This document shows, piece after piece, positions 6,401-28,353 of a DNA stretch of 33,897 bases. The notes beneath the pieces were generated by a model. The model had not been told where the DNA came from, searched no databases, and saw only the letters and a list, made by a program, of their open reading frames with translations. The DNA lies in assembly GCA_028066245.1 (NCBI GenBank), contig JALCBR010000051.1:1-33897 (forward strand), given 5' to 3'. The DNA is from Pirellulales bacterium (GTDB taxonomy: Bacteria; Planctomycetota; Planctomycetia; Pirellulales; S012-138). Each line of letters starts with the position of its first letter. Position 1 is the first letter of the stretch. The translations under genes and the position numbers were made by a program.

Positions 6401-6911
6401 ACCTTGCCGTCGCTTCCAACAATTCGATTGCGAAGCGGTCGCGGGCAGCCGGATCAGCGTCTCTCAAGATTCGGTTGGCATCGCGTAAAGGCGTTGGCTT
6501 GTTCCGCCGCGTTGTATCGGAGAGTCTTGTCTGCAGAGCACGAATGATTGCTGCAGAGATTGGCTCCCTCGCCCCGGTAACCAGAATTGGCAGAGCATCT
6601 GCTTTTGATAGCCCCTTGGAAACGGAACTCAGTTGCTTTGGAACTTGGCCGCTCCCGATGCCGCAAACACGAGCAAGGGCCAACGCAAAACATGACTTTC
6701 CTGTCCCATAGTCGCCAGTGATTCGCCACGCTCGTTCCGTCGAGCCGTCACCGAACGCAGTTGCAAACTGCCGGAATAGCTGACCGATCCTTTCTGTGAC
6801 GATGTATTGGTCGAGCGCAGTAGTGTCAGCGAAGTCACGTTCCAGATGGACCGACCGTGAATACCGCTGGCTGGGTTTCAGGTATTTTGCGATTCGGTTC
6901 GCGCTACGCAC
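3465..6911 (-). CDS. Large P-loop ATPase of a DUF4007-linked defence locus
   Basis: With the GTG start chosen here the product has 1148 residues. A Walker A motif GDYGTGKS lies at 66-73 and a Walker B LLILDELGKS at about 182-191 (D186, E187), followed by sensor-like text in LVVLGILHQGF. The remaining 900 residues are mainly helical with no nuclease or helicase signature that I can see. The large size and single N-terminal ATPase recall BrxC-type and other large defence ATPases, but I cannot place it in a named family. An in-frame ATG at 7100 would overlap the DUF4007 gene by nearly 200 nt. The GTG at 6911 overlaps it by only 8 nt and has AAGGAG 9 nt upstream, and the sequence looks conserved only from there (RIAKYLKPSQ). 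Its placement between DUF4007 and the GHKL protein suggests an energy-using step in the same pathway. Confidence 0.8.
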   Translation of the reverse strand: MRSANRIAKYLKPSQRYSRSVHLERDFADTTALDQYIVTERIGQLFRQFATAFGDGSTERAWRITGDYGTGKSCFALALARVCGIGSGQVPKQLSSVSKGLSKADALPILVTGAREPISAAIIRALQTRLSDTTRRNKPTPLRDANRILRDADPAARDRFAIELLEATARYVSDTKQGQGVLLILDELGKSLEFATQNPDEQDITFLQSLAEAASRSGATPLVVLGILHQGFSAYADRMEVNDQREWDKIGGRFAELLFDQPLEQLVALVSNALGVKRDRLPDGVKRAAKANMTKAIDLGWFGAVANRKVLIEQAPAIYPLQPMLLPVLVKIFSRFGQNERSLFDFLCSSDVNSIRSFATEHYAGDGFFGIHHLYDYVRSSIRNRLHTRSLSSRWSQIQSVIDASLAGTDHEVAMLKTVGVLNMLDDQKLTATEESLRHALTNTCVSGRSSFSKTLESLRSKKHVLYSRGTPAGFWLWPYTSVNLELKYADAERAVRTVDNVVEAVAETLAQRPIVARRHYVETGNLRHFDLVYVKVSDFAATVRHWRPDHADGAVIVPLCQTKAEQAEAIETIKKLRLNNRQEILIAVPDPLSGLSGLVREIRRWEWIRKNVEELNGDEHGREEVSRQLAAATFVLLDRTNQVLDVRTFRTGQSIRWFHKGKSIRVASSKSLFQRISTICDLVFDESPMLRNELLNRRKLSSAAAAARMRLIERVLENATEEFLGMDASKKPPEMSMYLSALQQTNLHVKGRKGARIAIPTTAKDTCNLIPLFNRMRDVLAAKEGSRVAVSDLFAELRKPPIGARDGILPLMLSVFCVAEAQHVAMYEDGAFLHEIGGAEFARLVKVPESFELQYCKLSGVRSEVFNHLLKVVDSDVDESRDPDLIDVVKPLCQFAASLPDYSRNTTSLGKQTLAVRDALLNATEPATLLFEDLPAACGLPRIPVRKRSTSPDVKKYVRALKRSLGELRSAYPSLLSRIEEVVAEAFGENSNHEALRASLEAKSNDLSVHVTEPTLKAFCLRLADSQLPRDTWLESVGSLVVAKPPRRWHDRDEPRFVESLTDLVTRFERTASLAFSKSNNAAHTSLRISILQPTGVEEGRVVEVSDSKEAKALRKKVDRLFENDPNLAVSVTSQVLLDQLASRSQS

Positions 6912-7839
6912 GTGCGAAGTCTCCTTCGTAGGCGTGAGTGAGGATGTTGTCGAACTCCCAATCCTCGCTTCGTCGCAACTGGTCAAACATTGCCGTTTCG
7001 GAATAGAGCAGAACGCCGTCACTATCTTCTTCAATCTGAGATAAGCGTCGGCGGACATCGTCTTCAGGCAGCTTAAACACCTGTCCAGGGCTCCCCGCAC
7101 CCGACGCTACATCACGGAGCGATAGGGTTTGCTCATCGGGCCGACATCGATTCCAGTATTCATCGATGGCGAACAGGAAAACCCCCGCGCTGAGATCTGG
7201 TTTCGGTTCACGGCGGAAAGCGTACGCCGGCTCCAACTTGTCCTTGGCGTTCGCCCGTTGGCCGACGCGTTCGATCAGTTCGAGTTCGACGAGCGGACAA
7301 TCAAGGTTGTCTTCGAGGATTTCCGCCTTCTGTCCCCTCGTCGCCACATAAGTGTGCATGAACACGTCGAAGTGTTGAGCCAACGTTGCCTTCGAAAGCG
7401 GACGGGCAAGCTGACGAGCTTCCCGTTCGATCACCGAAACCACCTCGGACTTGATGATCTCCGGCTCGTTGTACCGGTTGAAAAGAAAGTCCCACGCGAA
7501 GAGCGGATTCTTGTCCTGCGAACAAAGCTGCCAGTGGAGCAACCACAGAGTCGTGATGTCTTCGAGGTACGGATCAAGGCCGGACGGACCGAAAACGCGC
7601 TTCCCGAAGTCCGTGAGTTGCAACCCGCCGTTGCTGGCAGGTTCAGCGACACGCATGGCCTGTACCCAAAATCGAAGCGACTGGACCATGTTCTTCCCAA
7701 GTCCGAGAAGAACCATCGCCGAGTCGATGTCGGTGAACAGCAGGGTGTCCACACCAAGGGCCTCAACCGCCTTCGGGATCCACGCGTAGCGGCAGGTAAA
7801 TGACTCGTGCCCAGAAAAGCGGAAGACCGGCGCGCTCAA
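6904..7839 (-). CDS. DUF4007 family protein
   Basis: The product has 311 residues from a TTG start. Near the N-terminus it has FRFSGHESF followed by RYAWIPK, the hallmark of DUF4007, whose members usually begin close to this motif. The family is known from neighbourhoods of DNA phosphorothioation genes and other restriction-like systems; its biochemical role is not established as far as I know. The TTG at 7839 is preferred because AAAGGAG lies 6 nt upstream and because the 18 residues gained by starting at ATG 7893 are unlike the family and lack a ribosome binding site. It is the first gene of the leftward four-gene operon and overlaps the next start by 8 nt. The tail (residues about 215-311) carries helix-rich segments that could be DNA- or protein-binding, but nothing specific is visible. 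Confidence 0.82.
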   Translation of the reverse strand: MSAPVFRFSGHESFTCRYAWIPKAVEALGVDTLLFTDIDSAMVLLGLGKNMVQSLRFWVQAMRVAEPASNGGLQLTDFGKRVFGPSGLDPYLEDITTLWLLHWQLCSQDKNPLFAWDFLFNRYNEPEIIKSEVVSVIEREARQLARPLSKATLAQHFDVFMHTYVATRGQKAEILEDNLDCPLVELELIERVGQRANAKDKLEPAYAFRREPKPDLSAGVFLFAIDEYWNRCRPDEQTLSLRDVASGAGSPGQVFKLPEDDVRRRLSQIEEDSDGVLLYSETAMFDQLRRSEDWEFDNILTHAYEGDFARA

Positions 7840-7977
7840 GCTGGACTCCTTTCCACGTGTACGGGTTGAGATTGGGTCGCAAACTGCGATCATATTAGCA
7901 AACGGCGTGCCGCCTGTCTGGTACTCGCATCATTTTGGTGGCTAGGTTGGCTGATTCCTCGGGAAAGGATCACATTC
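7840..7977. promoter_or_regulatory. Shared divergent promoter region
   Basis: This 138-bp gap separates the leftward and rightward operons. Leftward, TAATAT (plus positions 7892-7897) is a good -10 box, with CAGACA (7915-7920) 17 bp upstream as a 4/6 -35 box. The 17-bp spacer contains the palindrome GGCG-TGC-CGCC (7904-7914), which would suit an operator. Rightward, TTGAGA (7866-7871) and CATATT (7891-7896) form a weaker pair with a 19-bp spacer, so the two -10 boxes would overlap and the promoters would compete. A strong ribosome binding site AAAGGA lies 8 nt before the rightward ATG. The boxes come from consensus matching only. Confidence 0.4.
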
Positions 7978-9861
7978 ATGGCGAAGAGAGGCCCGCAGTG
8001 GATCCGGTTTCTGCGGCAGTACGGGCCGATCGCCCGCAACGACAACATGTACGACGAGCACATTCGTCGTTCGGCCGCGCGAGTCAAGTTCGATCCGCTT
8101 CTATTCAAGCACCCGATTGAGAATGAGCTTTTTGCTCTCTTCTCGGAATCGGCCGAGTCACCGACCTCGGTAGTGTTGACGGGGACGGCCGGTGACGGCA
8201 AGACGCACCTTTGTCGCCAAGTCTGGCATCAACTCGGTGGCGATGGTGACGAATGGGACTCGGACCGAGTCTATCACCACATCGACACAACGCTCGGCGG
8301 ACACCCTTTCACGGTACATATCGTCAGAGACCTAACTGGGCTTCCGGAGACCGGGGAGAGCGGGAATTTTCACACAAAAACCGACCTGCTCGAATTCTTC
8401 TCCCACACCATATTCACGGATGATCCCGGAAGCGTATTCCTGATAGCTGCCAACGATGGTCAGCTCATCGATACATGGGCTCGGCTCAACCAGACGAAGG
8501 ACGAGGTTGATAGCACTGGTAGGCTCTTGGAAGATTTGCTTTTCAACGACCTGCGAAGACGGGAAGGCAAGCGACTCACCCTTTTCAACCTGAGCCGCAT
8601 TCCGTCTGCAACATTATTTGACCGGGCATTGGAGGCGTTCCTCAATCACGACGGATGGAAATGCTGCTACGACGAAGCTGGTCCCGATGCCGAGTTATTC
8701 GGCGAATGCTGTCCGATTCGGCGAAATCTCGAATTGCTCAAGCAAGACCAAGTTCGTGACCGACTTCGAGCACTTCTTGAGCTTTGCGATCACAACGAGG
8801 TGCATCTGTCAATTCGCCGTATCCTTCTGCTGTTGACAAACGCCGTCCTCGGTTTTGCTGGTAACGAAGCGGATGGAAAGAAGGTTGGGGACCGTCTGAT
8901 GAAGGCGGTGGATGTTCCGCGAATCATTGCGACCAAACAGGTTTCAAAGGCGAGCATCTACAACAATATCTTTGGTGGCAACCTAACCGAATACCGACGC
9001 AATTCGCTCGACGTGTTCGAGTACCTGAACCGATTCCGTATCGGAAGAGAAACGTCCAACCGTTTTGACAATTTGCTAATCTACGGGCACGCCGACGAAC
9101 AACTCAAACCCTTCTTTGATGAGCTGTTAGGGGTAGATAAGTTCTATGGAGCTGACGAAGCCTTTCTGGCGGCCCAACAGCAATACATCGAGGGCGCCGA
9201 TGAAGACATAGAGGCAACAGAACATTTCCTTGAGTTACTGATGAGCCAACGTCGGGCGTTGTTCTTCAAGATCCCGAATGAGATTCAGGACGAATTCTCG
9301 CCGTGGGATCTTACGGTCTTCAGCTTTGCGGGCGAGTATTTGGACCGCGTGGTCGGTCGCCTCACAAACGGCAAGCGAGTTGAAAAGGGTGTTTTGGCGA
9401 GGCTCACGAAGGGACTGAACCGTGTTTTCATCGGAATGCTCGTTACTTCCGATCGGGAACTTCTGCTGGCGACCGGCCTTTCGGGATCGGCAGCCAAAGT
9501 TAGCTGCATTCTCGAGGATCGCGTGTCGGTCACGCGACGCATCAGCGAGCAGGTCGAAATCCTGCTTGATGAATCCAACATGCCGATCCTTCGCGTCTCG
9601 TTTACCAACAGTCTGCATGTCGATCTTCGGTTGACGCTCACCCGATTCGAGTTTCTTAGCCGTGTTGCCGAGGGCGTATTGCCGGGGAGTTTCTCGAAGG
9701 AATGCCATGAGGACATTCTGGCGTTTAAGTCACGTCTATTGACGGCTGCGAAGCATCGACGGCAGGAGATCGGCGCGGACGAGGATCAGATGACCTTTCG
9801 ATTGCTCGAACTTGACGAACTTGGCAACCCGCTGGAGGAAGTCGTGGAGCTTGACACATGA
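7978..9861 (+). CDS. DptF-like P-loop ATPase
   Basis: The protein has 627 residues. It has a Walker A motif GTAGDGKTHL at 69-78 (K75, T76) and a Walker-B-like strand VFLIAANDGQ at about 153-162, in which Asn-Asp replaces the usual Asp-Glu. The GDGKTHL form and the position of this ATPase as the first of three genes ending in an FtsK/HerA motor match the layout of DptF in phosphorothioation-dependent restriction, but I assign this by architecture and not by alignment, so the symbol is left blank. Residues beyond 300 are helical without a recognised domain. The ATG has AAAGGA 8 nt upstream. Its stop overlaps the next start in ATGA, showing translational coupling. It probably uses ATP to control or assemble the complex with the two downstream products. 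Confidence 0.72.
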   Translation: MAKRGPQWIRFLRQYGPIARNDNMYDEHIRRSAARVKFDPLLFKHPIENELFALFSESAESPTSVVLTGTAGDGKTHLCRQVWHQLGGDGDEWDSDRVYHHIDTTLGGHPFTVHIVRDLTGLPETGESGNFHTKTDLLEFFSHTIFTDDPGSVFLIAANDGQLIDTWARLNQTKDEVDSTGRLLEDLLFNDLRRREGKRLTLFNLSRIPSATLFDRALEAFLNHDGWKCCYDEAGPDAELFGECCPIRRNLELLKQDQVRDRLRALLELCDHNEVHLSIRRILLLLTNAVLGFAGNEADGKKVGDRLMKAVDVPRIIATKQVSKASIYNNIFGGNLTEYRRNSLDVFEYLNRFRIGRETSNRFDNLLIYGHADEQLKPFFDELLGVDKFYGADEAFLAAQQQYIEGADEDIEATEHFLELLMSQRRALFFKIPNEIQDEFSPWDLTVFSFAGEYLDRVVGRLTNGKRVEKGVLARLTKGLNRVFIGMLVTSDRELLLATGLSGSAAKVSCILEDRVSVTRRISEQVEILLDESNMPILRVSFTNSLHVDLRLTLTRFEFLSRVAEGVLPGSFSKECHEDILAFKSRLLTAAKHRRQEIGADEDQMTFRLLELDELGNPLEEVVELDT

Positions 9862-11405
9862 CTCAGTTGCAGCCCGACATCAACTTGCCGCATCACGATC
9901 ACCAAACGATTCGCTATTGGGTAGACGAGCGCATTTGGGGCCATCGCATTTGGGACAACCAGACGCCGTGGCTGATCTTTCTTGAGTTCGCTGGAATCGC
10001 AGAATCCGCGCATCGCGACGGGTCGCTCCTGGATGAGCGGGGCTCGTACTATCCGCTGTTGTTCCGTCCACATCAGAGAATCCTGCTCCGTAACGTGCTG
10101 TACAACAATCAAATCCTTCCATTCATCCTCGACCGCTTCCCGGATGACGGGCGAGCGTGGAGAGAGTGGACGAGTTGGATGCAGGAGAATGCGCGTGGTG
10201 TCGCCAAGAGGGACTTCGACTATCTGCAGGACAGATTCTCTGGTTTTCGCGAATTCGCGAGACTCATTTCCATGTTGCGAACTTCCACGGTGGAGAGCGA
10301 GTCGAATCGCCGATGGTCGTCGCGGTTTCTTTTTCCGTTTGGAGAAAGCTGCCTTTACGAAGACTTGAATATCAACGCGGCGAATAAAGTCAGTCGCGAG
10401 TACATCAATTTCGGCAGAACGGGCGAGTTGCTTTATCTGATGCTGTGCCGTTCGTCATCGGCGACGACAATCGTGCCTTTTTTGCAGAAGATGGTGACTA
10501 ATCAGAATCCGTGGAACACGTTGGTGGCGCTCCTTCAGGACGACGAGCAGGAACATCGCGAGCAACGAGGAAAGAGCTATCTGCCGTACACGACTCACAC
10601 GGCCTTCGACACGCTGGGTGCCGATATTCTTCATTTGTTCCAACTTGACCTTCCGGGATTCGATGCGTATCCGCACATCGCGCTGATGTCGAGCATGCAC
10701 GTAATGCTCTACCAGATGGCGGTCTCGTCGCAAATACTTGGAATAACCTGCCCTCCCATTGTTTGTGAAATCGTTGCGCCGAGAAAGACTCTGGTCCGCG
10801 AACTCTCGATCAACAGCTATCAGTACAATAGCCAGCTTTCTGCACAGGCTGTCACGGCCTACATCGACTCGATCACATCGTCAGATGAATGGAAAGCCGC
10901 TGAGTCCTCCTCGGACGCGTATCCCCGATGCAAGACGATGTTGCTGGATCAGGTCGTCTGGCCGCGAGACGCCGACGATTATGACAAGGCACATGAGCCC
11001 GGCACGATGATCAAACATCTACGGCAATCCGCTTTGTCTCGCCATCGCCAGCACGCCGGCAATGTACATCGCTCGTACGGACGATCCATCGGACTCATTT
11101 CGAAGCGTGGCACGAACAAACTCCGATACGCCCCAAACGACGCTCTGCTAAAGTCTCTCATCCTTGCCAATGTTTCAGACAGGATGGAATTCAAGGAGTT
11201 CCTCCAACGCTTGTTCATGCGATATGGAATCGTCATCGGAGAACGTGAGGCCGATCAATCGCTCGAGGAAAGTGAGTTCGACAGCAAGGTGTTTCAATCG
11301 AATGCGTCACGTCTTGAACAACGGCTCAGCAGCTTGGGAATGTTGCGACGCCTCTCCGATGCGTGTGCTTATGTGTTGAACCCGTATGCAGAGACCGCGC
11401 GATGA
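9858..11405 (+). CDS. Unknown middle protein of the ATPase/FtsK module (DptG position)
   Basis: The product has 515 residues and no motif that I recognise for catalysis. It begins with a tryptophan-rich stretch (TIRYWVDERIWGHRIWDNQTPW). The last 70 residues (about 443-511, from MEFKEFLQRL to VLNPYAE) look like a winged-helix domain, with two helices around a YGIVIG turn and a final hydrophobic strand. It occupies the slot that DptG has between DptF and DptH, though it is somewhat longer than I expect for DptG and similarity cannot be shown by eye. Both ends overlap neighbours by 4 nt (ATGA at 9858 and at 11402), so the three proteins are probably made in fixed ratio and act as one complex. 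It may be the DNA-binding or bridging subunit. Confidence 0.65.
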   Translation: MTQLQPDINLPHHDHQTIRYWVDERIWGHRIWDNQTPWLIFLEFAGIAESAHRDGSLLDERGSYYPLLFRPHQRILLRNVLYNNQILPFILDRFPDDGRAWREWTSWMQENARGVAKRDFDYLQDRFSGFREFARLISMLRTSTVESESNRRWSSRFLFPFGESCLYEDLNINAANKVSREYINFGRTGELLYLMLCRSSSATTIVPFLQKMVTNQNPWNTLVALLQDDEQEHREQRGKSYLPYTTHTAFDTLGADILHLFQLDLPGFDAYPHIALMSSMHVMLYQMAVSSQILGITCPPIVCEIVAPRKTLVRELSINSYQYNSQLSAQAVTAYIDSITSSDEWKAAESSSDAYPRCKTMLLDQVVWPRDADDYDKAHEPGTMIKHLRQSALSRHRQHAGNVHRSYGRSIGLISKRGTNKLRYAPNDALLKSLILANVSDRMEFKEFLQRLFMRYGIVIGEREADQSLEESEFDSKVFQSNASRLEQRLSSLGMLRRLSDACAYVLNPYAETAR

Positions 11406-14400
11406 TGAACTCTGTTCAGTTGATTGGCGACGTTTTCGCTAGGTACCTCGACGCGAGCGTCGAGAAGGACAGCGAAGACGGTACTGCACGGTTCATGATT
11501 GATCATCTGGCTCCACACCAAACCGTCGCGATCGCGACGCGAGTGTTGAGTCATCCCACACTGCGGGATTCGGTCGATCTTAAGGTCAACCGTGAATTCG
11601 TGGGGAATTCAAGCCTCCCCGACAGCGTACTGACAACTGCTCCGGCGACCTTTTTCCGAAACTGTGTCTGCCATCGTCCTATTCTACTCGTGGCGAGCAC
11701 AGGTGACGATGAAGACCAATCACTGAAGGAGTTCATTCGGATCGGCGCGGAGGAACTAAAAGCGTCTCCCGAACATTGGGTCTCGTCCGTATGCGACGAC
11801 CTGACTGTCACTGACGAACACAAGATGTGGTGGGAAAAAGCGATCGCGGGACTCTGTGAACTGCGAATTGTTTCAATCGAACGTCTGGCTGCGTACGTCG
11901 TTCGCACTTGCGATTTGATCCGCAACGAGGGTTTGCCCATCGGCTTAGCGCTCGGGCAAGCGCTGCCCGCGCTCCGCTTCCCCAAAGACTCGACCCTCTT
12001 CGACCGCATTCGCGAAGGACGACGAACGCACAAGTCGGCATGGAGGACCGAGTTCAATCGCATCTACCGAAAGAATGCTTGCTTTTTGCAGAAGCAGACC
12101 ACGTCGCAACTGTTGCTCAGCGAAGATGACCTGCGCAGTTCGTTCGCGAAGGTGAGCGACGAGATTCCCGAAGAGCATCATCCAACGGTCGTGAGTTTCA
12201 TCGATTCAGCGAGTGGATGGAATCAACAGGCAGAAGCTCTAGCCGAATGTGAATGGGAGGACATTCGTCCGCTCTTCGACGGTTTGAGACGGGTTAAGCT
12301 GAACCTTGGAGAAGCGACCATTGCGTTTTACGACGAGCGCAGCCCCGACCTGATCAGCGACGAGGATCACGAGTATTTGCAACTGCTCGCAAAGCGACCG
12401 AAGGCAAACGATCCGATCGATGATGATTATGCCTTTTATGAGTCACATCGCAACGAGATCAAAGAAGACCGGAAGCTTCGGTCGGCTTGGGATAAGTTCA
12501 TCTTTGGACGGCCGCGTGAATGCACCGACTTCATCGTCGGATTGGCGGCAAGCATCGAATCGTTGTTCAACCAATCCGCAGGTGCGAAGAAACGTACGCT
12601 TCATATCCGTTGTGACAGTGCGACCAAGAGGGAACTTCGCGATGTGAACATCAACGCTGGAGAGTACTTCGCACAACGGTACGCAGGGGTGAAATCCCTG
12701 CTTGGCAAGCGAGTCAAGTGGCAGGTGGGAAAGCTCTTCGAGTTTCCCGAGCTCGTCCGTGAATGGAGGAAGTCGCCAAAGACACGATTGAATCGCTCAC
12801 AGGCCAAAGCTGCCCTTCAACTCAAATTCATTTTGGAAGTCGAAACCGAAACACTTGACGGCGATACGCAGAGTTCGTCAACACAGTTGATTTGGATGTT
12901 CGATCCTGATGCAGTAACCAGCGAGTTCGTCGGCGACTGGCGGCGGTTGCAGGAGAAGCCGCTCATCCGCTGTCAGACGGATCTCGATCCAATCAGTACC
13001 AAGGGCCACTATCAGGCCATCGACCTTTCCAACGTCAAGACCTTTGTTCCCTCATACGATCGGAACCGCGGGTCGTTCGTTGCTGTCTATCGCAAGGAGC
13101 GTGACCTAGACGCACTTTGGCGAGCGAATCTGTCATCGGCATTGGGGCAAGGCCTCATTAGCAAGGGCACGAAACAACGGCTTGAGAATCAATTCGCGAC
13201 CTTTGTCGAAGAGTACACGAACGCCATTCGTGGCTTCGGTGAAATGGGACTAGTCGAAGGCGCGCTGACGCGGCAGTTATCGCTCTATTCCGACCTGCTC
13301 ATGACGGTGTGCCGTGACGCGCCCGGCGACAGCAATCGAAAGTTACTGCTCCGTCCACTGCTTGAAATCGGTGCTGTTGCGATCGACGCCGACGTGACAA
13401 CCGCGGTCATCGCGCCGTGGCACCCGCTTAGGATGGCCGCAATCGCACGCAAGGCAAAGCTGGTTGGCGATTTGATTCAGCGATTGTTGGATGAGCAGCA
13501 AGTCGAGTTTGGGGACCAACGGCTGTATTTCAAAGAACTTGTCCGCGAGCTAGAGCACCCGTTCTACCCCGAAGTTGTGCTCGGCTGGGACGAGAATGAG
13601 CCGAAACTGTTGGCCACAACTGATGTTGTTGGGGACTATAGCCTGCACGAACCTCCGGTGCTCTCAAAGAAACGAGTGGCGGCGACCAATGAGAACCCAG
13701 CACCAGCCGCAGCCAGAGTAATGGAGCTGCTGCACCAATACGTCAATCTCCATCCGCATGAGCGAGCTAATCTGTCTGTTGTTCTCTTCAATAGCGACTC
13801 GTCACGGTTGCCACAGGCGGTTGTCGATAAGATCGGTGCGTTGCACGAGGATGACGAAGACGTTCACTGCCAGATCATTCTCCGGCACACGGAGCCGCGC
13901 CGGCTGCGGTCTCTTTACCAAGAGATCGTCGAATCATCCGACGAAGATGTTGACTCATACAGCGCGAGCGAAGCGACGCAGGACTTTCTCGCACGTCTGC
14001 GAATTGGAATCCTCGCCGATCAGGCACCAGCACCTGATCCTAAAGACGGGTGCTCCCATGACATCTGCTTTTCGCAAGACGTCATCGCACGGCATTCCCA
14101 GCTCGAATGGTACCGAGAAGCTTACACGCCCGTGCCCTTAGACACGCTGGTTCCAGCACGATGGTCGCGACGGCGCCCAGCGGCAAAGGACGATCTAAAG
14201 TCTGTCGTCTATTTGTGCTGCCCGGTCCAGAGTGAGGAAGGGTGGGCATTCCTGACTGCCACCACGACTTTCCTCAAGGGAGACTGGGACGGCGACGAGT
14301 CGTCCCGGTTGCTGCCCGTCCGTCAGCTCGACTTTCACGACAAAGAAACGGCGCAGATCTTTGAGGAAACACACAACCTCGCGAGTTGGGTAGTGAATTT

Positions 14401-16660
14401 CGATGAGCTACTCGATCGCCGCCAGCTCCAGAATCAGAACGTACGCATAATTCGATACAAGCAGTCGGCGACTCAGGGTCGCAATCTCGTAATCTCGTCC
14501 AAGGCAAGCTCAGGGCTCCTGCGGACGATGCTGCAAAGCCGCTTGCGACAACTCAACCTTGGCCTGTCAGATGCAGACTACGAGAGTCTGGCAACGAAGA
14601 TGATCGACGACGCGAATTCCATCTCAGGCGACCTTGCGTTGCGTGCGGCCAAGCGGGGACGGAGTGCCTACGAGTTGATGGGCGTTGTCCTAAGCCGATT
14701 CCTCGTCCGCCACGAGCTTCCTACCGATCGTTTCTTTGGATGGTACTTCCTCGATGATTACGCTGAATGGCTTGGCCAACGCGAACAGCAGATTGCGGAT
14801 TTGCTGATCGTCAGCCCTGAACAAACATCGAACGGCGAGTTGTATCTGTCGATCGTTGCTTCTGAAGCGAAATACATTGCCGAGGCAAGTCTGGCCAAGA
14901 AGAAGAAAGAGAGCCAGAAGCAGCTGCGGGACACCGTACGTCGCATTCATGACGCTTTGTTTGGCAACCCCGACAGGCTTGATCGCGGGCTGTGGCTGGC
15001 AAGGCTTGCCGACCTCGTATTAGACGGAGTCCAGTTTGCGGCGGGCCAGTCCATCGATGTTGGGAAATGGCGACACGCGATCCGTGGTGGCAACTGTAAG
15101 ATCATGGTCCGTGGCTATTCACACGTCTTCGTCCATTCTTCCGATTTCGACGACTCGAGTTCATTTCCAATCGATGAAGTGGAGAATTGCTATCAAGAGG
15201 TTCTCGCTCGCAAGGAACTTCGCGATATTGTCTTGGCCTACTGGAATGATGACGACCCGTCTGGTCCTCGAAACCGTTGTTTCGATTTTCCTCCGTCGCT
15301 CAATCCACACGAGTTTCGGCCTCCGACATCCAGCGGCACATTAGAGCCGAAACCGGACAAGGCGGAAGTTCCTGGCGAAGATACCGGTCCATCGCCAGAA
15401 TCCGATCCGGCGCAAGACATGAAGGATGCACGTTCTGTTTCGGATACCGGCTCAGAGACTGAACCAACCATCACCCAGAATTCAGAGTCGTCCGCATTAC
15501 ATACTGACGACGACCGATGGGCGTACGCAGGGCTCGCCGAGATTATCTACCGGCACGCTGCGGAACACCAAGTCTCCGATACAGACTTGGAATGGCTGAA
15601 ACAAACAGAGTTCAGCGCGAAAAACGGCTTGCAGCAATTCCACCTTCAAGCCAAGTTGATCGATGCCAAGATGACACCGAACGCTGCCCTCCTCAAGTTT
15701 GAGGGTAGCAAGCACATGACCGTCGAGCAGGTCAACAAGCGTCGGTCTGAGTTCCTAACAACTCACGGACTCAACATCATCTCGGTTCAGCCAGAGCCGG
15801 GAACGGTTTCAATTGCGATTGCTCGCCCCGAACGCGAGATTGTCGACGTTGCTTCTGTCTGGCAGCGATGGAATCCGGAACGCACTGACGGCAATCAGGA
15901 CATAGCAATCGCAGTACGCGAAGACGACGGTGCGATCCTCTTTCTCAACCCTAGCACCAGGCACGCTCCACATACACTCATCGCAGGGTCGACCGGCAGT
16001 GGCAAATCCGTGCTGATGCAGAACATCCTGCTCGGTATTGCCGCGACCAATACACCGATTCAAGCAAACATTCTGCTCATCGATCCGAAACAAGGCGTGG
16101 ACTACTTCCAATTTGAAGGGCTACCGCACTTGAGTAGCGGCCTGATCGTCGAAGAAAATCAAGCTGTTACCCGCCTCGAATCTCTCGTTCAAGAAATGGA
16201 CGAACGGTACAAACGGTTTCGTGCCGCTAAAGCGAACAACATCACGTCATTCAATCGGAAGTGCAAACTCACCGACCGAATGCCTACCATCTGGCTCATT
16301 CACGACGAGTTCGCAGAATGGATGCTCGTCGAGGACTACAAAGATGCAGTGTCCTCAACGGTGCAACGCCTTGGGGTCAAGGCCCGCGCAGCCGGAATAC
16401 ATTTGATATTCGCCGCTCAGCGTCCCGATGCCAACGTCATGCCGATGCAGTTGAGGTCGAATCTTGGCAATCGGTTGATTCTTCGCGTTGATTCGGAAGG
16501 TACGTCGGAGTTGTCACTCGGCGATAAGGGCGCAGAAAAACTACTTGGAAAAGGACACCTACTGGCAAGGCTAGAGGGCGATCCAGGTTTGACATATGCA
16601 CAGGTGCCTCTCGCTTCGACCGAGTTCACGGAAGCGGTCATCGAGCATCTATCAGGCTAA
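11402..16660 (+). CDS. DptH-like FtsK/HerA DNA translocase with a PD-(D/E)XK-like nuclease motif
   Basis: The product has 1752 residues. The last 250 are an FtsK/SpoIIIE-type motor: Walker A GSTGSGKS at 1529-1536, Walker B IWLIHDEFAEWM with D1635 and E1636, then GIHLIFAAQRPDANV, RSNLGNRLILRV and GAEKLLGKGHLLARL, all in canonical order. No FtsK gamma domain and no membrane domain are present. A PD-(D/E)XK-like signature lies earlier: ADLLIV with D1133, then VASEAKYI with E1155 and K1157, followed by a lysine-rich helix with a Gln. An acidic, Ser/Pro-rich linker (about 1300-1370) joins it to the motor. Size and C-terminal motor match DptH of phosphorothioation-dependent restriction. The ATG at 11402 overlaps the previous stop; an in-frame ATG at 11363 adds 13 cysteine-rich residues inside the previous gene and is less likely. 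I infer a DNA-pumping, DNA-cutting effector. Confidence 0.82.
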   Translation: MMNSVQLIGDVFARYLDASVEKDSEDGTARFMIDHLAPHQTVAIATRVLSHPTLRDSVDLKVNREFVGNSSLPDSVLTTAPATFFRNCVCHRPILLVASTGDDEDQSLKEFIRIGAEELKASPEHWVSSVCDDLTVTDEHKMWWEKAIAGLCELRIVSIERLAAYVVRTCDLIRNEGLPIGLALGQALPALRFPKDSTLFDRIREGRRTHKSAWRTEFNRIYRKNACFLQKQTTSQLLLSEDDLRSSFAKVSDEIPEEHHPTVVSFIDSASGWNQQAEALAECEWEDIRPLFDGLRRVKLNLGEATIAFYDERSPDLISDEDHEYLQLLAKRPKANDPIDDDYAFYESHRNEIKEDRKLRSAWDKFIFGRPRECTDFIVGLAASIESLFNQSAGAKKRTLHIRCDSATKRELRDVNINAGEYFAQRYAGVKSLLGKRVKWQVGKLFEFPELVREWRKSPKTRLNRSQAKAALQLKFILEVETETLDGDTQSSSTQLIWMFDPDAVTSEFVGDWRRLQEKPLIRCQTDLDPISTKGHYQAIDLSNVKTFVPSYDRNRGSFVAVYRKERDLDALWRANLSSALGQGLISKGTKQRLENQFATFVEEYTNAIRGFGEMGLVEGALTRQLSLYSDLLMTVCRDAPGDSNRKLLLRPLLEIGAVAIDADVTTAVIAPWHPLRMAAIARKAKLVGDLIQRLLDEQQVEFGDQRLYFKELVRELEHPFYPEVVLGWDENEPKLLATTDVVGDYSLHEPPVLSKKRVAATNENPAPAAARVMELLHQYVNLHPHERANLSVVLFNSDSSRLPQAVVDKIGALHEDDEDVHCQIILRHTEPRRLRSLYQEIVESSDEDVDSYSASEATQDFLARLRIGILADQAPAPDPKDGCSHDICFSQDVIARHSQLEWYREAYTPVPLDTLVPARWSRRRPAAKDDLKSVVYLCCPVQSEEGWAFLTATTTFLKGDWDGDESSRLLPVRQLDFHDKETAQIFEETHNLASWVVNFDELLDRRQLQNQNVRIIRYKQSATQGRNLVISSKASSGLLRTMLQSRLRQLNLGLSDADYESLATKMIDDANSISGDLALRAAKRGRSAYELMGVVLSRFLVRHELPTDRFFGWYFLDDYAEWLGQREQQIADLLIVSPEQTSNGELYLSIVASEAKYIAEASLAKKKKESQKQLRDTVRRIHDALFGNPDRLDRGLWLARLADLVLDGVQFAAGQSIDVGKWRHAIRGGNCKIMVRGYSHVFVHSSDFDDSSSFPIDEVENCYQEVLARKELRDIVLAYWNDDDPSGPRNRCFDFPPSLNPHEFRPPTSSGTLEPKPDKAEVPGEDTGPSPESDPAQDMKDARSVSDTGSETEPTITQNSESSALHTDDDRWAYAGLAEIIYRHAAEHQVSDTDLEWLKQTEFSAKNGLQQFHLQAKLIDAKMTPNAALLKFEGSKHMTVEQVNKRRSEFLTTHGLNIISVQPEPGTVSIAIARPEREIVDVASVWQRWNPERTDGNQDIAIAVREDDGAILFLNPSTRHAPHTLIAGSTGSGKSVLMQNILLGIAATNTPIQANILLIDPKQGVDYFQFEGLPHLSSGLIVEENQAVTRLESLVQEMDERYKRFRAAKANNITSFNRKCKLTDRMPTIWLIHDEFAEWMLVEDYKDAVSSTVQRLGVKARAAGIHLIFAAQRPDANVMPMQLRSNLGNRLILRVDSEGTSELSLGDKGAEKLLGKGHLLARLEGDPGLTYAQVPLASTEFTEAVIEHLSG

Positions 16661-16950: not shown

Positions 16951-16969
16951 AGAATCAAATTGAGATTCT
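16951..16969. terminator. Small stem-loop between convergent genes
   Basis: AGAATC and GATTCT form a 6-bp inverted repeat with a 7-nt loop exactly where the HARE-HTH gene and the recombinase gene converge. There is no T tract on either side and it overlaps the recombinase stop codon, so termination activity is only a possibility. Confidence 0.25.
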
Positions 16970-17950
16970 CTCAACGATGTTTCTTGTTACTTGCTGGTTC
17001 CGACGATCGTAGAGCCGAGTCGTGCGTGGATCAGCGTGGCCGGCGAGCAACTGCACATCTTCAAGCGGCACGCCCTGGCTCAGCAAATCCGTAATGGTCG
17101 CCACTCGGAATGAATGAGGGGACAGTCGCGTCGGTAGCCGGGCGTCGCGCATGCGGCGTTTGACCATGCGAGTCATGTCGCCTGGGGTCATCGCGTTGTG
17201 CGTCAGCTGCTTCGTTCTTCGCACCGTGGTGCGAAACAGGGACGTCGATTTGTCAGAGTACTCCAGGCCGCCGGCTTGCAGGTAGGCTGCGATGAAGCCA
17301 CGCAGGTCGTGGCGGACCGGGATCTCGCGCGACTTCGTGCCCTTTTCCGTGAAACGGAGGCAATGCTGATCGCCGGTGTCGTAGTAGTCGGTTCGGCGAA
17401 GCTGTGCGACCGCCCCAACGCGGGCGGCGGTGTAAATCAGGATGCCGATGATGGCGCGGTCGCGCAGGCCGACCACGTGTGACGTGTCAATGCTGCCAAG
17501 CAAATTCCGAGCTTGCTTGACGCTGATCTCTGGCGTTCGGCCTTCGACGATCTGCAACCGCTCACCTCGAACGGTCGCGGCGGGGTTCAGGATGATAACG
17601 TGGCGGTTTACCAACTGGTCGAAAAAGTGGCGAAGCGCAGCCAGGTGGAGCTTCTTCGTGGCTGGCGCGAATTCGAGGGAGTCAAGGTACTGCCCAACAT
17701 CTCGTGGAGCAATTTGAGCGAGAGCGACGCTGCGACCGTCGCACCACGCCAGGAATCGCGCGACAGCATGCCTGTAGTTGCGTCTTGTGTGCGGGTTTCG
17801 CAGTCGGCCGTAAATGAACTCTTCCCATGCGAAACGGGCAGCCGGCCCGCTGGAACTGATCAGCGTCGGTACAACACCCGCTGCACCGTCCGCGTCGAGC
17901 TCCAGTTCGTGACGGATCGCGGGCAGATTTATCCTTGGGTCATCATCCAT
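16955..17950 (-). CDS. Tyrosine recombinase / integrase
   Basis: The ATG at 17950 gives 331 residues; a TTG at 17992 would add 14. The N-terminal SAM-like core-binding domain (RNPHTRRNYRHAVARFLAW) is followed by the catalytic domain. Visible active-site residues are Arg in YTAARVGAVAQL, Lys in EKGTKSREIPV, His and Arg in SPHSFRVATI, His in LLAGHADPRTT and the nucleophile Tyr in RLYDRRN. The usual Glu after the first Arg is replaced by Ala (RVGAV), as in a subset of phage-type integrases. The enzyme makes site-specific DNA rearrangements through a 3'-phosphotyrosine intermediate. It is convergent with the defence operon and divergent from nothing nearby, so it could have moved either the left locus or the hypothetical-gene block. 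It appears intact. Its attachment sites were not identified. Confidence 0.88.
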   Translation of the reverse strand: MDDDPRINLPAIRHELELDADGAAGVVPTLISSSGPAARFAWEEFIYGRLRNPHTRRNYRHAVARFLAWCDGRSVALAQIAPRDVGQYLDSLEFAPATKKLHLAALRHFFDQLVNRHVIILNPAATVRGERLQIVEGRTPEISVKQARNLLGSIDTSHVVGLRDRAIIGILIYTAARVGAVAQLRRTDYYDTGDQHCLRFTEKGTKSREIPVRHDLRGFIAAYLQAGGLEYSDKSTSLFRTTVRRTKQLTHNAMTPGDMTRMVKRRMRDARLPTRLSPHSFRVATITDLLSQGVPLEDVQLLAGHADPRTTRLYDRRNQQVTRNIVERISI

Positions 17951-18220
17951 TTCCTTCACATGTGAAGCATCCGCGTGGGCATTCCACAACAACGACTACG
18001 TGCCGTGCTGCTGACCACCGAATGAGCATTCCAATCACGCATTCGGGAACAGCGGAATTGGCGCCCGGCGAGTTTTTCGCCCTGCGGCTGGTAGTTACAC
18101 ACAATGTCCTTTGTAAGGCATTAGAAATAGCACGACGTGTGATGATTCAGCAAGCGGCTGAATGATGCCCGGCAATTACTGGTAGTTTTCTGGAATAGTG
18201 TCGGTTGGCTGATCAGAAAG
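17951..18220. other. Non-coding gap upstream of the recombinase, with short repeats
   Basis: No convincing gene is present. Two copies of GCATTCCA occur about 47 bp apart near 17979 and 18026, and CGAATG (18019-18024) faces CATTCG (18040-18045). GGCGA-GTTTT-TCGCC forms a small hairpin at 18067-18081. The first three could be recombinase arm or core sites because they sit directly upstream of the recombinase gene, but the repeats are short enough to arise by chance. Confidence 0.25.
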
Positions 18221-23992: not shown

Positions 23993-24289
23993 CTAGAACG
24001 GAGTGTCTTCGCCGTCACGCCCGTCGCCGTTTCCGTTGGCTTTGGTTGCTGCGGCTGCCGACTCTTCGAAGATCCACGAGTGGCAGCGGTCGAGCACTTT
24101 GGCTACCAGCGGCAAGTCGTCCCGGCCGAAGCTGGAGGAATCCTTCCATTCGTCACCGTCCTTGAACAGCCGTGTCACGGTCACGTTGTGTCGCGTGCCG
24201 TTCTGGGTGTCATTGGCCCAGATGGCGGCACGGATACGGCCCAGCCGAATCTCGTGAACGGGTCCAGACTTCTTTGCAGTTCTTGGCAT
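23993..24289 (-). CDS. Small hypothetical protein of a mobile-element type
   Basis: The 98-residue product starts MPRTAKKSGPVHEIRLG. The segments GRIRAAIWAND, HNVTVTRLFKDGDEWKDS and DLPLVAKVLDRCHSWIF give a strand-rich fold followed by a helix and a disordered Gly/Asp tail (GNGDGRDGEDTPF). I recall such VHEIRLGRIRAAIW proteins as common small genes in integrative elements and plasmids, but no function is known to me. Acidic disordered tails like this occur in single-strand DNA-binding proteins, which is only a loose analogy. The ATG at 24289 has AAGGA 7 nt upstream. It lies 116 nt after the 145-aa gene. Confidence 0.65.
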   Translation of the reverse strand: MPRTAKKSGPVHEIRLGRIRAAIWANDTQNGTRHNVTVTRLFKDGDEWKDSSSFGRDDLPLVAKVLDRCHSWIFEESAAAATKANGNGDGRDGEDTPF

Positions 24290-24389
24290 GATTCTGTCCT
24301 TTCGTTGCAAATAGAGAGAAACAAACGAGAAACGAATTGCCGCCGGACCGAGACCGCCAAGGGCGAGTCGGGCTAGCGGCAGGAACCCA

Positions 24390-24406
24390 ACTTTGGGAAC
24401 CAAAGT
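24390..24406 (-). terminator. Hairpin at the stop of the 145-aa gene
   Basis: ACTTTGG-GAA-CCAAAGT is a perfect 7-bp stem with a 3-nt loop, overlapping the TGA stop of the upstream gene by one base. No T tract follows on the minus strand, so it may stabilise an mRNA 3' end or attenuate transcription rather than terminate it fully. Confidence 0.35.
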
Positions 24407-24843
24407 CACGTATCGAGTTCTTCGACGTTGATCCGAAGCCTGCGCCGAACGCTTTGCTCTGGCTCATCTAGCAAGACGAGAAGCTCGGCATCGTCGGCAA
24501 GTTCAATTTGCGAGGCATGCAGTTCCCAGTCGAAGCGATCCAGCACGCGGTTCGCTGCCGTCTGGGGATCGGGAGCCACTACATCGGAGAACTCGACCCG
24601 CACAATGGCGTAGCACTGCACGGTCCACGGTCGCAGGTCTTCGACTTCACCGTTAGCCAGGCCGAGCTCCCGGAGCTTGGCCAGCGCCGCTGCATCCGAG
24701 GGATACTGTTGACAAAAGTCACATCGCTCGACGACAGCGCCCGGAGCTACGCGACCGTTCTCCAGTGCGGCCAGGATGCCGGGCACGCCTGTGTAGAACG
24801 CGCCCGGTAGTTCACACTCGCAGCGTTCGCGAGGGTGGGGCAT
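24406..24843 (-). CDS. Hypothetical protein with a Cys motif
   Basis: The product has 145 residues and starts MPHPRERCECELPGAFYTGVP. It contains CEC near the start and RCDFCQQYPSDAAALAKLREL around residues 40-60, so up to four cysteines could bind a metal. The C-terminal half (WTVQCYAIVRVEFSDV, DPQTAANRVLDRFDWELHA, LVLLDEPEQSVRRRLRINVEEL) looks like a small alpha/beta domain. The function is unknown. The start is firm: GGAGG lies 5 nt upstream of the ATG. It follows the DUF932 3' exon by 72 nt on the same strand, so expression may depend on read-through past the group II intron. Confidence 0.65.
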   Translation of the reverse strand: MPHPRERCECELPGAFYTGVPGILAALENGRVAPGAVVERCDFCQQYPSDAAALAKLRELGLANGEVEDLRPWTVQCYAIVRVEFSDVVAPDPQTAANRVLDRFDWELHASQIELADDAELLVLLDEPEQSVRRRLRINVEELDT

Positions 24844-24915: not shown

Positions 24916-25299
24916 CTACGCAGCGAGCGAAAGAAGCTTGCTGATTTTGGCGTCGAGTTCCGTGCGGTCACCGGCAAAGCCGATCGAGCCGGAGAATCGT
25001 GTCAGCGCATCAACCAGCGAGAAGATCGTCGCCTTGCCGCTCCGTGTCGCATTGGGTAAGGCCTCTTTCGAGAGCGATCGCGGGATACCGTGCTCACCGA
25101 GCACCTTCAGTACTTCCTCCGTGCTGTCACCGACCGGTTCATGCATTGCCTTTTCGATGACAGTGGCAAAGCGATCACGGCGCTCGTCGCGGCGAGCGAC
25201 CAGGCGTTCGATGTGGCGGCGGATCTCGTCGAGTGCGTCGCGGACGTTAGTAGTGTGTTTCCGCGAGAACTCGACGACTTCGACGGCGTCCCAGACAAT
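24916..25299 (-). CDS. DUF932 gene, 3' exon
   Basis: This is the second part of the split DUF932 gene, 128 codons including the stop. It opens in frame with IVWDAVEVVEFSRKHT, the continuation expected after CGNH in DUF932 proteins (typically CGNHIVWGA), and runs on through a helical region to ISKLLSLAA. It has no start codon or ribosome binding site of its own at the exon border; an internal ATG at 25146 is only part of the frame. It can be expressed as DUF932 only if the intron splices. DUF932 proteins are common on plasmids and phages with no agreed function. Confidence 0.78.
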   Translation of the reverse strand: MVWDAVEVVEFSRKHTTNVRDALDEIRRHIERLVARRDERRDRFATVIEKAMHEPVGDSTEEVLKVLGEHGIPRSLSKEALPNATRSGKATIFSLVDALTRFSGSIGFAGDRTELDAKISKLLSLAA

Positions 25300-25363
25300 G
25301 TAGAGTAGATAGCTGACGAGGTATCTCGTTGTTGTCGAGACCCTTTTCCAACCACCCCTCCCC

Positions 25364-25397
25364 GAACCGGACTTGACCGTTTCCGATCATCCGGCTC
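25364..25397 (-). ncRNA. Group II intron domain V
   Basis: The 34-nt hairpin begins GAGCCGGATGATCG, has a GAAA tetraloop and ends GTCCGGTTC. It contains the AGC catalytic triad in the lower stem and the usual bulge, and forms the catalytic centre of the ribozyme. It lies just downstream of the maturase stop. Confidence 0.92.
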
Positions 25398-25406
25398 TCC
25401 AGTGTT

Positions 25407-27242
25407 CTACCCTCCTTTGCGTGTCCTTGTTGGGCGACCTCCGTGGATCGCCCGGTGACAAGCGTGACAAACCACCAGGGTTTTGCGACGGCGCGCGGCC
25501 ATCACTTGGACCCAGAGCGGCTTCTGCGGTCGCCCCGGCTTCTGCAAGTCTTTCAGAGCGCGAATGTGGTGGACCTGGACGTTGTCCTGTGATCCACACA
25601 GTTCACACTCGTCGGCGAGCAGCCGCCAGACCAGTTCCGACATGTTGATTTTCGGAACCGGCTCGCGATCGTAGAGTGTCGTGTCGAGCCTGCGTGCCAG
25701 GGAGATAGCCCCCCAGCGTGCAATCAAGGGCTTTTTGCCGCTGCGTTCGATCCGAACTTCGAGCACGCGACGCGGCCCTCGTTCGGTTTCGATCGTTGTG
25801 GCGTATCGCTGATAGACCTTTGGCTGGCTGATACGCAGTTTGTAGGCCAGCGTCCGGGTCAACGAACGTTGCATGACCACTTTCAGTCGACTGAGGTCAC
25901 GCGTGTTGTGAGCCATGATGTAGAAGTTGACGATCCCCCGATACACGCTCTGGTACTGGGCCACGATGTCGAACACCGATTGCTCCAGCAGCTCAGGGCG
26001 ATGTTTCGGCTTACCGCCTTTCATATACGGCTCACACTTCGCCTTGATGACGTCCTTTGGCACTCGCGGGCTGACGATTCCGTTGACGGATCGCCGACCG
26101 TTGGAGTGCTTCCGGTCGTCTTGAGTGACGCACAGTTCGTAACCGAGGAATCGCGCCTTCTCCGAACGCCCATGCGTGATGAGCGTTTTCTCTTCGGAGA
26201 GTTCCAGTCTGAGCTGTTCCCGAAGGAACGTTGACAGATGGGACTTGATTTCCTCGGCCTCATTGCGTGTCCCCACGAATCCCAGCAGAAAGTCGTCCGC
26301 GTACCGAACGTATTTCAGACGGCGATAATCTGGATCGTCGAGGAGTCGTGAAGGAAGCTGCTGCACCCGTTTGAAAAGGTGATGAGCCTCGTTTCCACGC
26401 CCCGTTCGTCGCAGATATCGCGCCCGGTCATACAATGTTCGGTACTCTGGATTGGGCTTCCGCTCCTTTCCGCGAGTCCACTGTGGACTGAGCGTCTGCT
26501 CGACAAACCTGTCCAGCCGGTCAAGGTAGATATTCGAGAGAATGGGGCTCACGATCCCTCCCTGCGGCGAACCGCTGAAGGTCCCGTGATACTTCCAGTC
26601 CTCAAGGTATCCCGCCTTGAGTAGGTTCTCGATCAACCGCAAGAAGCGGTTGTCATGGATCTGTTCGCGAAGGATCGACGTCAGGACCGTATGGTCGAGA
26701 TTGTCGAAACAGCCGCGAATGTCACCCTCGATGAACCAAACAGTGCTTTTCCAGGTGAAATAGATTTCCCGCAGGGCCGTATGGCACCCACGCCGCGGAC
26801 GGAATCCGTGCGAGTGTTCGCTGAACTGCGGTTCGTAGTACGCCTCCAACAAGGTGCGGATCACTTCCTGAAGAAGTTTGTCCGACCAGGTTGGCATTCC
26901 GAGCGGTCGCAGTTTCCCGTTCTTCTTCGGGATGTACGTGCGTCGCACGGGCGTCCACCGATACGCTTCTCGACTCAGGCGATCGATGATCGCCCGAATC
27001 TTCTTCAGCGACATGGCATCCACGGTTTCATCCGTGGTACCAGGTGTCATCGAACCTTTGTTGCGGTAAATCTTTCCGTAAGCCTGGAGAAACCACTCCG
27101 GGTTGCGGAGCTGACGGTAGAGGTCATCCACCGGCAGCCCACGCTGGCCACGACTACGGATGATGCCCAGATAGGTTTCGGCGTTTCGCATCCCGCGTGC
27201 CTCATCTCCTGGACATCTCGAACACCTGCCTCCCTTCGCCAT
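25407..27242 (-). CDS. ltrA: Group II intron reverse transcriptase/maturase with HNH endonuclease
   Basis: The 611-residue protein has the domain order of an intron-encoded protein: RT fingers and palm with PKKNGKLRPLGMPTWSDKL and SPQGGIVSPILSNIYLD, catalytic YADD at 314-317 (VRYADDFLLG), a maturase (X) domain around 390-500, and a C-terminal HNH/zinc-type endonuclease with CELCGSQDNVQVHHIRAL (C546, C549, H558, H559) and CHACHRAIHGG (C592, C595). It helps the RNA fold and splice, and copies it into DNA during retrohoming. All active-site residues are present. The first 17 residues (MAKGGRCSRCPGDEARG) are unusual for the family; an ATG at 27191 opening MRNAETYLGII is a possible alternative start. 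The gene name is used in the generic sense. Confidence 0.93.
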   Translation of the reverse strand: MAKGGRCSRCPGDEARGMRNAETYLGIIRSRGQRGLPVDDLYRQLRNPEWFLQAYGKIYRNKGSMTPGTTDETVDAMSLKKIRAIIDRLSREAYRWTPVRRTYIPKKNGKLRPLGMPTWSDKLLQEVIRTLLEAYYEPQFSEHSHGFRPRRGCHTALREIYFTWKSTVWFIEGDIRGCFDNLDHTVLTSILREQIHDNRFLRLIENLLKAGYLEDWKYHGTFSGSPQGGIVSPILSNIYLDRLDRFVEQTLSPQWTRGKERKPNPEYRTLYDRARYLRRTGRGNEAHHLFKRVQQLPSRLLDDPDYRRLKYVRYADDFLLGFVGTRNEAEEIKSHLSTFLREQLRLELSEEKTLITHGRSEKARFLGYELCVTQDDRKHSNGRRSVNGIVSPRVPKDVIKAKCEPYMKGGKPKHRPELLEQSVFDIVAQYQSVYRGIVNFYIMAHNTRDLSRLKVVMQRSLTRTLAYKLRISQPKVYQRYATTIETERGPRRVLEVRIERSGKKPLIARWGAISLARRLDTTLYDREPVPKINMSELVWRLLADECELCGSQDNVQVHHIRALKDLQKPGRPQKPLWVQVMAARRRKTLVVCHACHRAIHGGRPTRTRKGG

Positions 27243-27417
27243 GTAGCCGGCTTTCCCGACCTCGGACTACTATGGAGGCTCCGTCACCTTAGGGCTCGCG
27301 CCCCGTAGGCGATCCCGTATTCCCTATTCGTTAGCATTCACAGTGCGACTTAGGCGCCCCGTTCGTCCCCTTGAACGACCTCACTGGTCGTCGCCCACAA
27401 GTCAGAAGGTCCGGCGG

Positions 27418-27424
27418 AAACCAC
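27418..27424 (-). other. Candidate EBS1 of the group II intron
   Basis: On the minus strand this reads GTGGTTT. Its first six bases are fully complementary to AACCAC, the last six bases of the 5' exon, as expected for the EBS1-IBS1 pairing that sets the insertion site. It lies about 280 nt into the intron, in domain I. The surrounding loop was not folded. Confidence 0.5.
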
Positions 27425-27702
27425 ATAAGCCGCCGTCAACTTGTGGCATCGCCGCTAAGCGTGGTGGCGACGGATGTGCGCTTTGCATCACTGGAGACTG
27501 GGGTTCAGGCAGTATAGCTTTCGCCATATCACGCGGGTCTTGCGGCACCCTGCCATACACGTTTTCTGACAGTCACCGCTTTACCAACATGCGATTGTCC
27601 CCCTTGGCTTTCGCCGCAAGGTAGGTTGGTTGACCCTGAAGGTCTCCTTCTAAACCTCCTCCCGACTAAGTCGGGTCTCTAACGAATGGTGAAACGGCGC
27701 AC

Positions 27703-28353
27703 GTGGTTGCCGCAGATTCGCTGATACCAGAACGTTTGGATTCCCAGCGAGCGACGACCAACTTCGCTGTTCCAGGCAAAAAAGCCGGGAGCGAATTGTT
27801 CTTTGCCGATCTCGGTCCACCCCTTCGGGTCGACCAGGAAGGCGAAAAGATCCTGCTCGCCACAGTAGAGTCCCGTGCCGTGACCGTTGAACGCCCGTTG
27901 GGGCGGCTCAAAGTCACTGCGGAACTCACTGATAACGTCGAGCAACTCCGCGTTCCACAGCCGGGTGTAGCTCACTCCGTGAACGGCCTTCGCCGCGCGA
28001 TCAGTCTTCAGCAACTGAATCGGCTTGTTGGCACTCGGCAGCGTTTCGCGAATCGCCAGAGCGGCTGTTGCCGGCTGAAGGCGATTGATCGTCTGGCGAC
28101 TGACGCCGCACAGCCCACAAAGCTGACCGAACGACCAATCCGTGAGACCGCAGGTCGTGCCATCATCGAGCGACAGACGCAGCGATCCGTTTCCCTCCGG
28201 ACGCAGCTCCTGGGGAAGCTGCCAGTGTTCCATCGATTCCTGCCGCCGTCGGCGGCACGTCTCGTGCAACTGTTCGAACGACTCGAAGCACTCGTCGGGT
28301 TCGCGCTTGAACAGTTCTCGGTGTGCTTTGGTGAGATTGGCCATGATTTGCAT
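27703..28353 (-). CDS. DUF932 gene, 5' exon
   Basis: This is the first part of the split DUF932 gene, 217 codons. The text HGVSYTRLWNAELLDVISEF, GTGLYCGEQDLFAFLV, GFFAWNSEVGRRSLGIQTFWYQ and ICGNH is typical of DUF932 (plasmid/phage-like) proteins. The segment WSFGQLCGLCGVSRQTINRL near the middle resembles a helix-turn-helix. Without splicing, the frame would run seven codons into the intron and stop at 27679, making a 224-aa truncated product. With splicing, the protein is 344 residues, a normal family length. The start is at 28353 or at the ATG at 28344; AAAGGA lies too close to the first (2 nt) and somewhat far from the second (11 nt). It heads the leftward block of small genes. Confidence 0.85.

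Follow-up and report, generated by a model that had tools for sequence, protein, structure and literature searches.

The window analysed here, that is, the whole stretch of 33,897 nucleotides of contig JALCBR010000051.1 from a Pirellulales bacterium, contains a group II intron that splits a DUF932-type gene, an observation that the analysis confirmed. The element appears to be an ordinary intron of the type that combines a IIA ribozyme with a mitochondrial-like (ML) protein, and its interest lies in its target. The most probable reading of its sequence is that of a mobile intron which homes to the conserved C-x-N-H-I-V-W motif in DUF932 genes of mobile elements, and we give this reading a probability of about 0.85. 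Coordinates are those of the window unless a locus is named, and the split gene, the intron and their component features all lie on the minus strand.

The intron occupies positions 25300..27702 (2403 nt, GTGCG...CTCTAC), and its ends follow the group II rule, with GTGCG for the 5′ GUGYG and TAC for the 3′ AY. Domains V and VI are found at 25300..25399, where the Rfam model RF00029 (Intron_gpII) scores 61.6 bits against a cut-off of 40, so that the catalytic domain V is present; in the predicted fold, domain VI carries a bulged A at 25306, 7 nt from the 3′ splice site and within the 7 to 8 nt typical of the branch point. The intron-encoded protein (IEP; 611 aa, 25407..27242) contains, by Pfam, a reverse transcriptase (RT) domain with the RYADD motif, a maturase domain and an AI2M-like HNH domain, and both RVT_1 and Intron_maturas2 are above their cut-offs, which places an RT/maturase inside the intron. 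NCBIfam group_II_RT_mat is the top match of the IEP, yet with 277.6 bits it stays below the curated cut-off of 300. The best solved relative is LtrA of the Ll.LtrB intron, with 384.9 bits for residues 40-599 and 131 bits for the runner-up, a match that would suit an IEP of the ML, LtrA-like kind.

The gene is divided between the codons for CGNH and those for IVW. Exon 1 (27703..28353) holds 217 codons and ends in ...CGNH, and exon 2 (24916..25299) runs from IVW through the stop codon. When 28353..27703 and 25299..24919 are joined, a 344-aa frame without any stop is obtained, whereas without splicing the reading frame terminates 7 codons into the intron. The original prediction, which had placed the intron between these codons with a productive frame on joining, is thus borne out with exact boundaries, as are the GTGYG...AY ends, the intact domain V and the six-base pairing of a domain I GTGGTT with the exon end AACCAC that it had described. 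Its statement that this is the most conserved stretch of the protein is a little too strong: among 338 seven-residue windows, residues 216-222 rank 3rd and 214-220 rank 7th for conservation, and the top stretch lies around 194-201 (the alignment contained a few fragments, one of them copying exon 2 of the window gene itself).

The assignment of the gene to DUF932 rests on homology to plasmid proteins that carry this annotation. In tblastn searches 304 plasmid records match the host protein (best E 9e-25), many of them annotated DUF932, with an identity of about 26-27% among the matches listed, and the protein can also be aligned to Pfam-positive DUF932 proteins of two enterobacterial loci (L060 and L221, see below). 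Against the Pfam model itself (PF06067) the score is 19.8 bits, below the gathering cut-off of 23, and the DUF932 label proposed earlier therefore stands by homology but not by the family threshold. Matches to the host gene occur in 23 of 146 nearby genomes (own genome included), in 45 of the 396 genomes searched from the order and in 21 of the 392 from the phylum, in samples that overlap and with matches that include fragments.

The intronless set consists of fetched loci with more than 45% identity that span the intron site, which leaves out fragments falling short of it; the window's own copies, the intron-bearing locus L002 and three broken loci (L167, L168 and L169) were excluded. All 46 relatives in this set are uninterrupted at the site, and in all of them N-H stands directly before it. 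L139 is the best of the empty alleles: its protein is 85% identical, and its DNA can be aligned without gaps across the junction, the alignment starting from an ATG four residues into the window gene.

The loop of a domain I hairpin carries the octamer ATGTGGTT (27419..27426), which joins delta to exon-binding site 1 (EBS1) and is complementary to AACCAC|AT, where AACCAC (27703..27708), the Asn-His codons, is intron-binding site 1 (IBS1) and AT (25298..25299), the first two bases of exon 2, is delta-prime. GTGGTT pairs with AACCAC at 6 of 6 positions, and the two preceding bases pair with exon 2 bases 1-2, giving 8/8 contiguous pairs. A fixed 8-mer would be expected by chance with a probability of about 0.8% in the 5′ 520 nt and of 0.03% in the 20-nt slot where the relatives keep EBS1. 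Across the set of introns, pairing of at least 7/8 in the homologous slot is found for 11 of 26 introns with their own exons vs. 7 of 644 swapped intron-exon pairs. Delta lies immediately 5′ of EBS1 and pairs with the first bases of exon 2, a mode of recognition given as the defining one for IIA introns in PMC3898094. For EBS2, the candidate CGCACA (27475..27480) pairs at 5/6 with exon positions -14..-9, and the aligned base covaries with the exon in L002 (GGCACA, 6/6). An alternative candidate, assigned early, is GCCGCA (27541..27546), which pairs at 6/6 with exon positions -12..-7 and lies off the slot used by the relatives.

A G of EBS1 faces the third codon position of both Asn and His, so that all four spellings of the dipeptide can be paired. 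In the 46 empty alleles these spellings are AACCAC (22), AATCAC (10), AACCAT (10) and AATCAT (4), and, with G-U pairs counted, 43 of the 46 could pair 8/8 with the window guide. The invariance of the motif means that nearly all relatives of the gene offer the site, and the intron could therefore move between DUF932 genes that are otherwise about 55% alike. In the mechanism that we propose, the IEP-bound intron RNA would recognise the AAYCAY|AT core in DNA by pairing (AUGUGGUU), the predicted insertion sites of this ribonucleoprotein being AACCACAT DUF932 sites. Insertion would proceed, as in the family, by reverse splicing into the DNA strand, cutting of the second strand by HNH and target-primed reverse transcription. 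In the mRNA the same pairing would set the splice sites, and splicing, again expected from the family, would restore the 344-aa protein, so that the insertion would be tolerable.

The closest known intron occupies the identical codon of another DUF932 gene. Relatives were sought in 84,980 genomes, and the loci examined were the best 80 of 167 relatives. Among them L002, from a metagenome-assembled genome (MAG) of Phycisphaerae (contig JAUWNI010000128.1), has the same delta-EBS1 octamer and an IEP that is 80.2% identical over 595 codons, and its exon 1 is 55.6% identical to that of the window over 171 codons. The check proposed earlier, a search for this intron at the same codon in other DUF932 genes, thus has a positive outcome. 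Separate arrivals of the intron in the two genes are favoured, since in the exon 1 tree the window gene clusters with intronless genes and apart from L002; third-position divergence is too noisy for a proof.

A second lineage reached the same motif outside the planctomycetes. Boundary hidden Markov models (HMMs) trained on 18 introns placed 91 introns among 148 candidate sequences, some of them duplicates, and two distinct targets outside the planctomycetes turned out to be DUF932 genes, in Morganella (L060) and on a Serratia plasmid (L221); an earlier reading, in which every other relative sits in other genes, was rejected once the boundary HMMs had placed L060 in DUF932. The joined genes score 173.7 bits (L060) and 172.3 bits (L221) with the Pfam DUF932 model, and hhalign aligns their VC-x-N-G to the C-x-N-H of the window (E 2.5e-5, probability 75). 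The insertion is one base earlier and falls in the codon that follows Asn (Asn-Gly). Of 5426 E. coli genomes, 56 have a match to the Morganella intron, which in 54 of them covers at least 80% of its length, and all 54 touch a DUF932 annotation. The E. coli locus L233 has a host gene that is DUF932 by RefSeq annotation, an open joined frame and an insertion at the aligned C-x-N motif; in this one record the two halves, 1124-1501 and 3911-4351, are both marked incomplete by RefSeq. A tree built from 115 IEPs gives full support to each of the two DUF932 groups and places them far from each other, with a common ancestor that spans 111 of the 115 proteins. The proposal that a conserved coding motif is the target, and that such introns occur in DUF932 genes across replicons and phyla, thus gains support from L002 and, one nucleotide away, from L060, L221 and L233.

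Among the remaining relatives, those with less than 66% identity are mostly found in unrelated genes or inside other group II introns. About 16 were judged to lie within domain V hairpins of other group II introns (a regular expression had flagged 20 of 77, four of them falsely), nested in the hairpin loop at L020, L029, L030, L033, L036, L050, L059 and others, and several are in RT genes of other introns, with L006 and L014 exactly after the YADD motif. Related introns inserted at unrelated sequences, which the original prediction had named as a refutation, are thus real for most of the more distant relatives, though not for the nearest one. Viral contigs yielded 9 further, more distant IEP relatives and zero matches to the intron 5′ pattern; phage sequences matched the IEP just weakly.

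Several observations weigh against the reading as a mobile intron with this homing site. Pairing at EBS2 is barely above the control across the set (own-exon mean 4.81/6 vs. 4.53 for swapped exons). There is a single copy of the intron in its own genome, where no second group II domain V is above the cut-off, and close IEP relatives at E 1e-100 were absent from 391 other Planctomycetota genomes, so that nothing here points to recent activity. Fourfold-site divergence between the window and L002 overlaps for exon (42%, 27-58) and intron (58%, 52-64). The exon 1 frame of L002 has a stop near the start of its matched part, and a DUF932 exon 2 is missing from L002: in its place the 3′ flank holds the C-terminal part of an integrase-type transposase, which makes DUF932 not restorable from that copy as assembled. 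Two homologous transposases read C-x-D-H right before this 3′-flank point, and the junction would be explained if another copy of the intron had entered such a transposase and recombination, or chimeric assembly, had followed. At L002 (1531-3928) the DUF932 5′ flank and the transposase 3′ flank meet exactly at the intron end. Its MAG contains one copy of the intron, and 320 other genomes from the class of G799 contained no close IEP relative. In the genome of the window, a second domain V match stays under the threshold (G000:C80:9139-9243, 38.9 bits vs. a cut-off of 40).

The single copy would also suit an insertion that is a dead or poorly spliced remnant disrupting DUF932, its clean frame merely reflecting recency, and so would the incomplete annotation of both E. 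coli halves, seen in the one region examined, and the general statement in PMC4424553 that bacterial copies are mostly truncated or inactivated. We consider this unlikely, given that the IEP is intact with its RYADD, maturase and HNH elements, that domain V and the predicted branch A are intact, and that both exons are stop-free and 50-62% identical to their relatives along the full length.

A further explanation is that the match to a protein motif is incidental, a short nucleotide string being sufficient for insertion and DUF932 being hit by chance in each lineage. The location of most relatives below 66% identity in unrelated genes, domain V hairpins and RT genes of other introns fits this explanation, whereas the occurrence of two separate IEP lineages in DUF932 at the same motif does not. 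The positions of the non-Watson-Crick pairs between guide and exon also bear on it. For introns in coding targets, the reading frame of the joined flanks was used without reference to the pairing, and rows were kept with at least 60 codons open upstream and at least 45 downstream, one per target, which removed 16 loci with a shared target or an unclear frame. At a pairing score of at least 7 (n=22), non-Watson-Crick pairs fall on 15 of 54 third codon positions vs. 2 of 122 others (Fisher 3.5e-7), and none of 20000 phase shuffles reached the observed excess. With lower thresholds the counts are 15/61 vs. 8/139 at a score of at least 6.5 (n=25, shuffle p 0.0075), 19/72 vs. 13/160 at 6 (n=29, p 0.002) and 26/92 vs. 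27/196 at 5 (n=36, p 0.0095), that is, the effect has the same direction in all sets and becomes smaller as doubtful assignments are added. An earlier small set gave 13/41 vs. 10/87 (p 0.012), and p 0.11 after the removal of two introns sharing one target; the intron set was enlarged after this loss of significance and before the third-position claim was made. In high-GC genomes some frames are possibly wrong, an error that would be expected to weaken the effect, not to produce it. A preference for G or U among the EBS1 bases opposite third codon positions was considered as well and lacks clear support (p 0.045-0.18 across sets). A preference of the non-Watson-Crick positions for third codon positions is expected if protein constraint preserves the sites, and an incidental match therefore appears improbable.

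The pattern suggests that guides tolerate synonymous change at sites in invariant motifs, the protein fixing the other positions; a plain alternative is that the guides have yet to catch up with synonymous drift. Codon-tolerant targeting is known for homing endonucleases, and the tolerance proposed here would be its RNA-guided counterpart. As a tentative generalisation, to which we give somewhat less than even odds, LtrA-like introns may persist by means of guides that read invariant protein motifs, exact at codon positions 1-2 and loose at position 3. The DUF932 C-x-N-(H/G) motif would be one attractor, at which at least two intron lineages arrived independently, as did, three residues further along, a serine-recombinase element.

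The latter interrupts another DUF932 gene, L167 (G529:C142; 533-931, 4519-5190), which is split three residues past the intron site by a 3588-bp insert. The insert encodes a 737-aa serine recombinase (Resolvase, Recombinase, zinc ribbon), and TGGGATGCAAC is common to both junctions; L167 was accordingly rejected as an intron split near the motif. The fragments L169 and L168 likewise break near the split point of L167. A possible second split at residue 218, L103 (G106), was also rejected, as nothing but the 3′ portion of that gene remains, beside transposase remnants.

Dependence of DUF932, and perhaps of downstream expression, on splicing, as first suggested, is a reasonable possibility. A further idea, that the intron acts as a brake on its host element, with splicing efficiency setting the DUF932 level as in Ll.LtrB with its relaxase, draws on the reduction of ltrB mRNA and conjugation reported in PMC6003770 and on the conserved gene that adjoins DUF932 downstream, but there is no sign of a host benefit and we regard it as rather improbable. 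This downstream gene (23993..24409, minus strand) is conserved beside DUF932 in relatives and was matched by tblastn in 43 loci outside its own genome, three of them weakly (26-34% identity). Between it and DUF932 lies a 145-aa open reading frame (24406..24843, minus strand) for which no relative was found among the fetched loci. Elsewhere on the contig of this DUF932 element are an Ssp-type defence system at 3465-16660 (SspC, SspB, SspF, SspG and SspH, by PADLOC models) and a tyrosine integrase at 16955-17992.

That group II introns insert site-specifically into genes of mobile elements is already well known, and what is worth following here is the recurrence in DUF932 together with the third-position pattern. 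No literature combining 'group II intron' with 'DUF932' was found in a search that had subscription papers outside its scope, and among the papers listed for wobble or synonymous tolerance in group II introns none was on that point. Here the site of a group II intron is secured by protein constraint and not by one fixed DNA string, in a clean natural case where a single gene family, from planctomycetes to E. coli, has both empty and filled alleles. Should the third-position pattern be borne out in a larger set, it would explain how site-specific introns cross diverged plasmids and species, and would offer a route to finding where uncharacterised introns home. A single spliced gene may, moreover, lie behind the two E. 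coli DUF932 halves that are annotated as incomplete.

Among known systems, the nearest well-studied one is Ll.LtrB of the Lactococcus lactis plasmid pRS01, a IIA intron of the ML class whose LtrA protein matches the IEP of the window over almost its entire length, better than any other solved relative. The two share the RT-maturase-HNH layout, delta beside EBS1 and residence in a gene of a mobile element (for Ll.LtrB according to PMC6003770). They differ in that the host gene of Ll.LtrB encodes a relaxase, not DUF932, and in that splicing and homing are proven for Ll.LtrB only. The enterobacterial DUF932 introns (L060, L221, L233) are of the same kind as that of the window, with IEPs about 55-56% identical and the same C-x-N motif, but they are inserted one nucleotide off in Asn-Gly, have a different EBS1 and form a separate IEP branch. 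Although L002 is set apart by its transposase-gene 3′ flank and by an exon 1 frame broken upstream, it is the closest counterpart of the window intron, with 80% IEP identity, the same codon and the same delta-EBS1 octamer.

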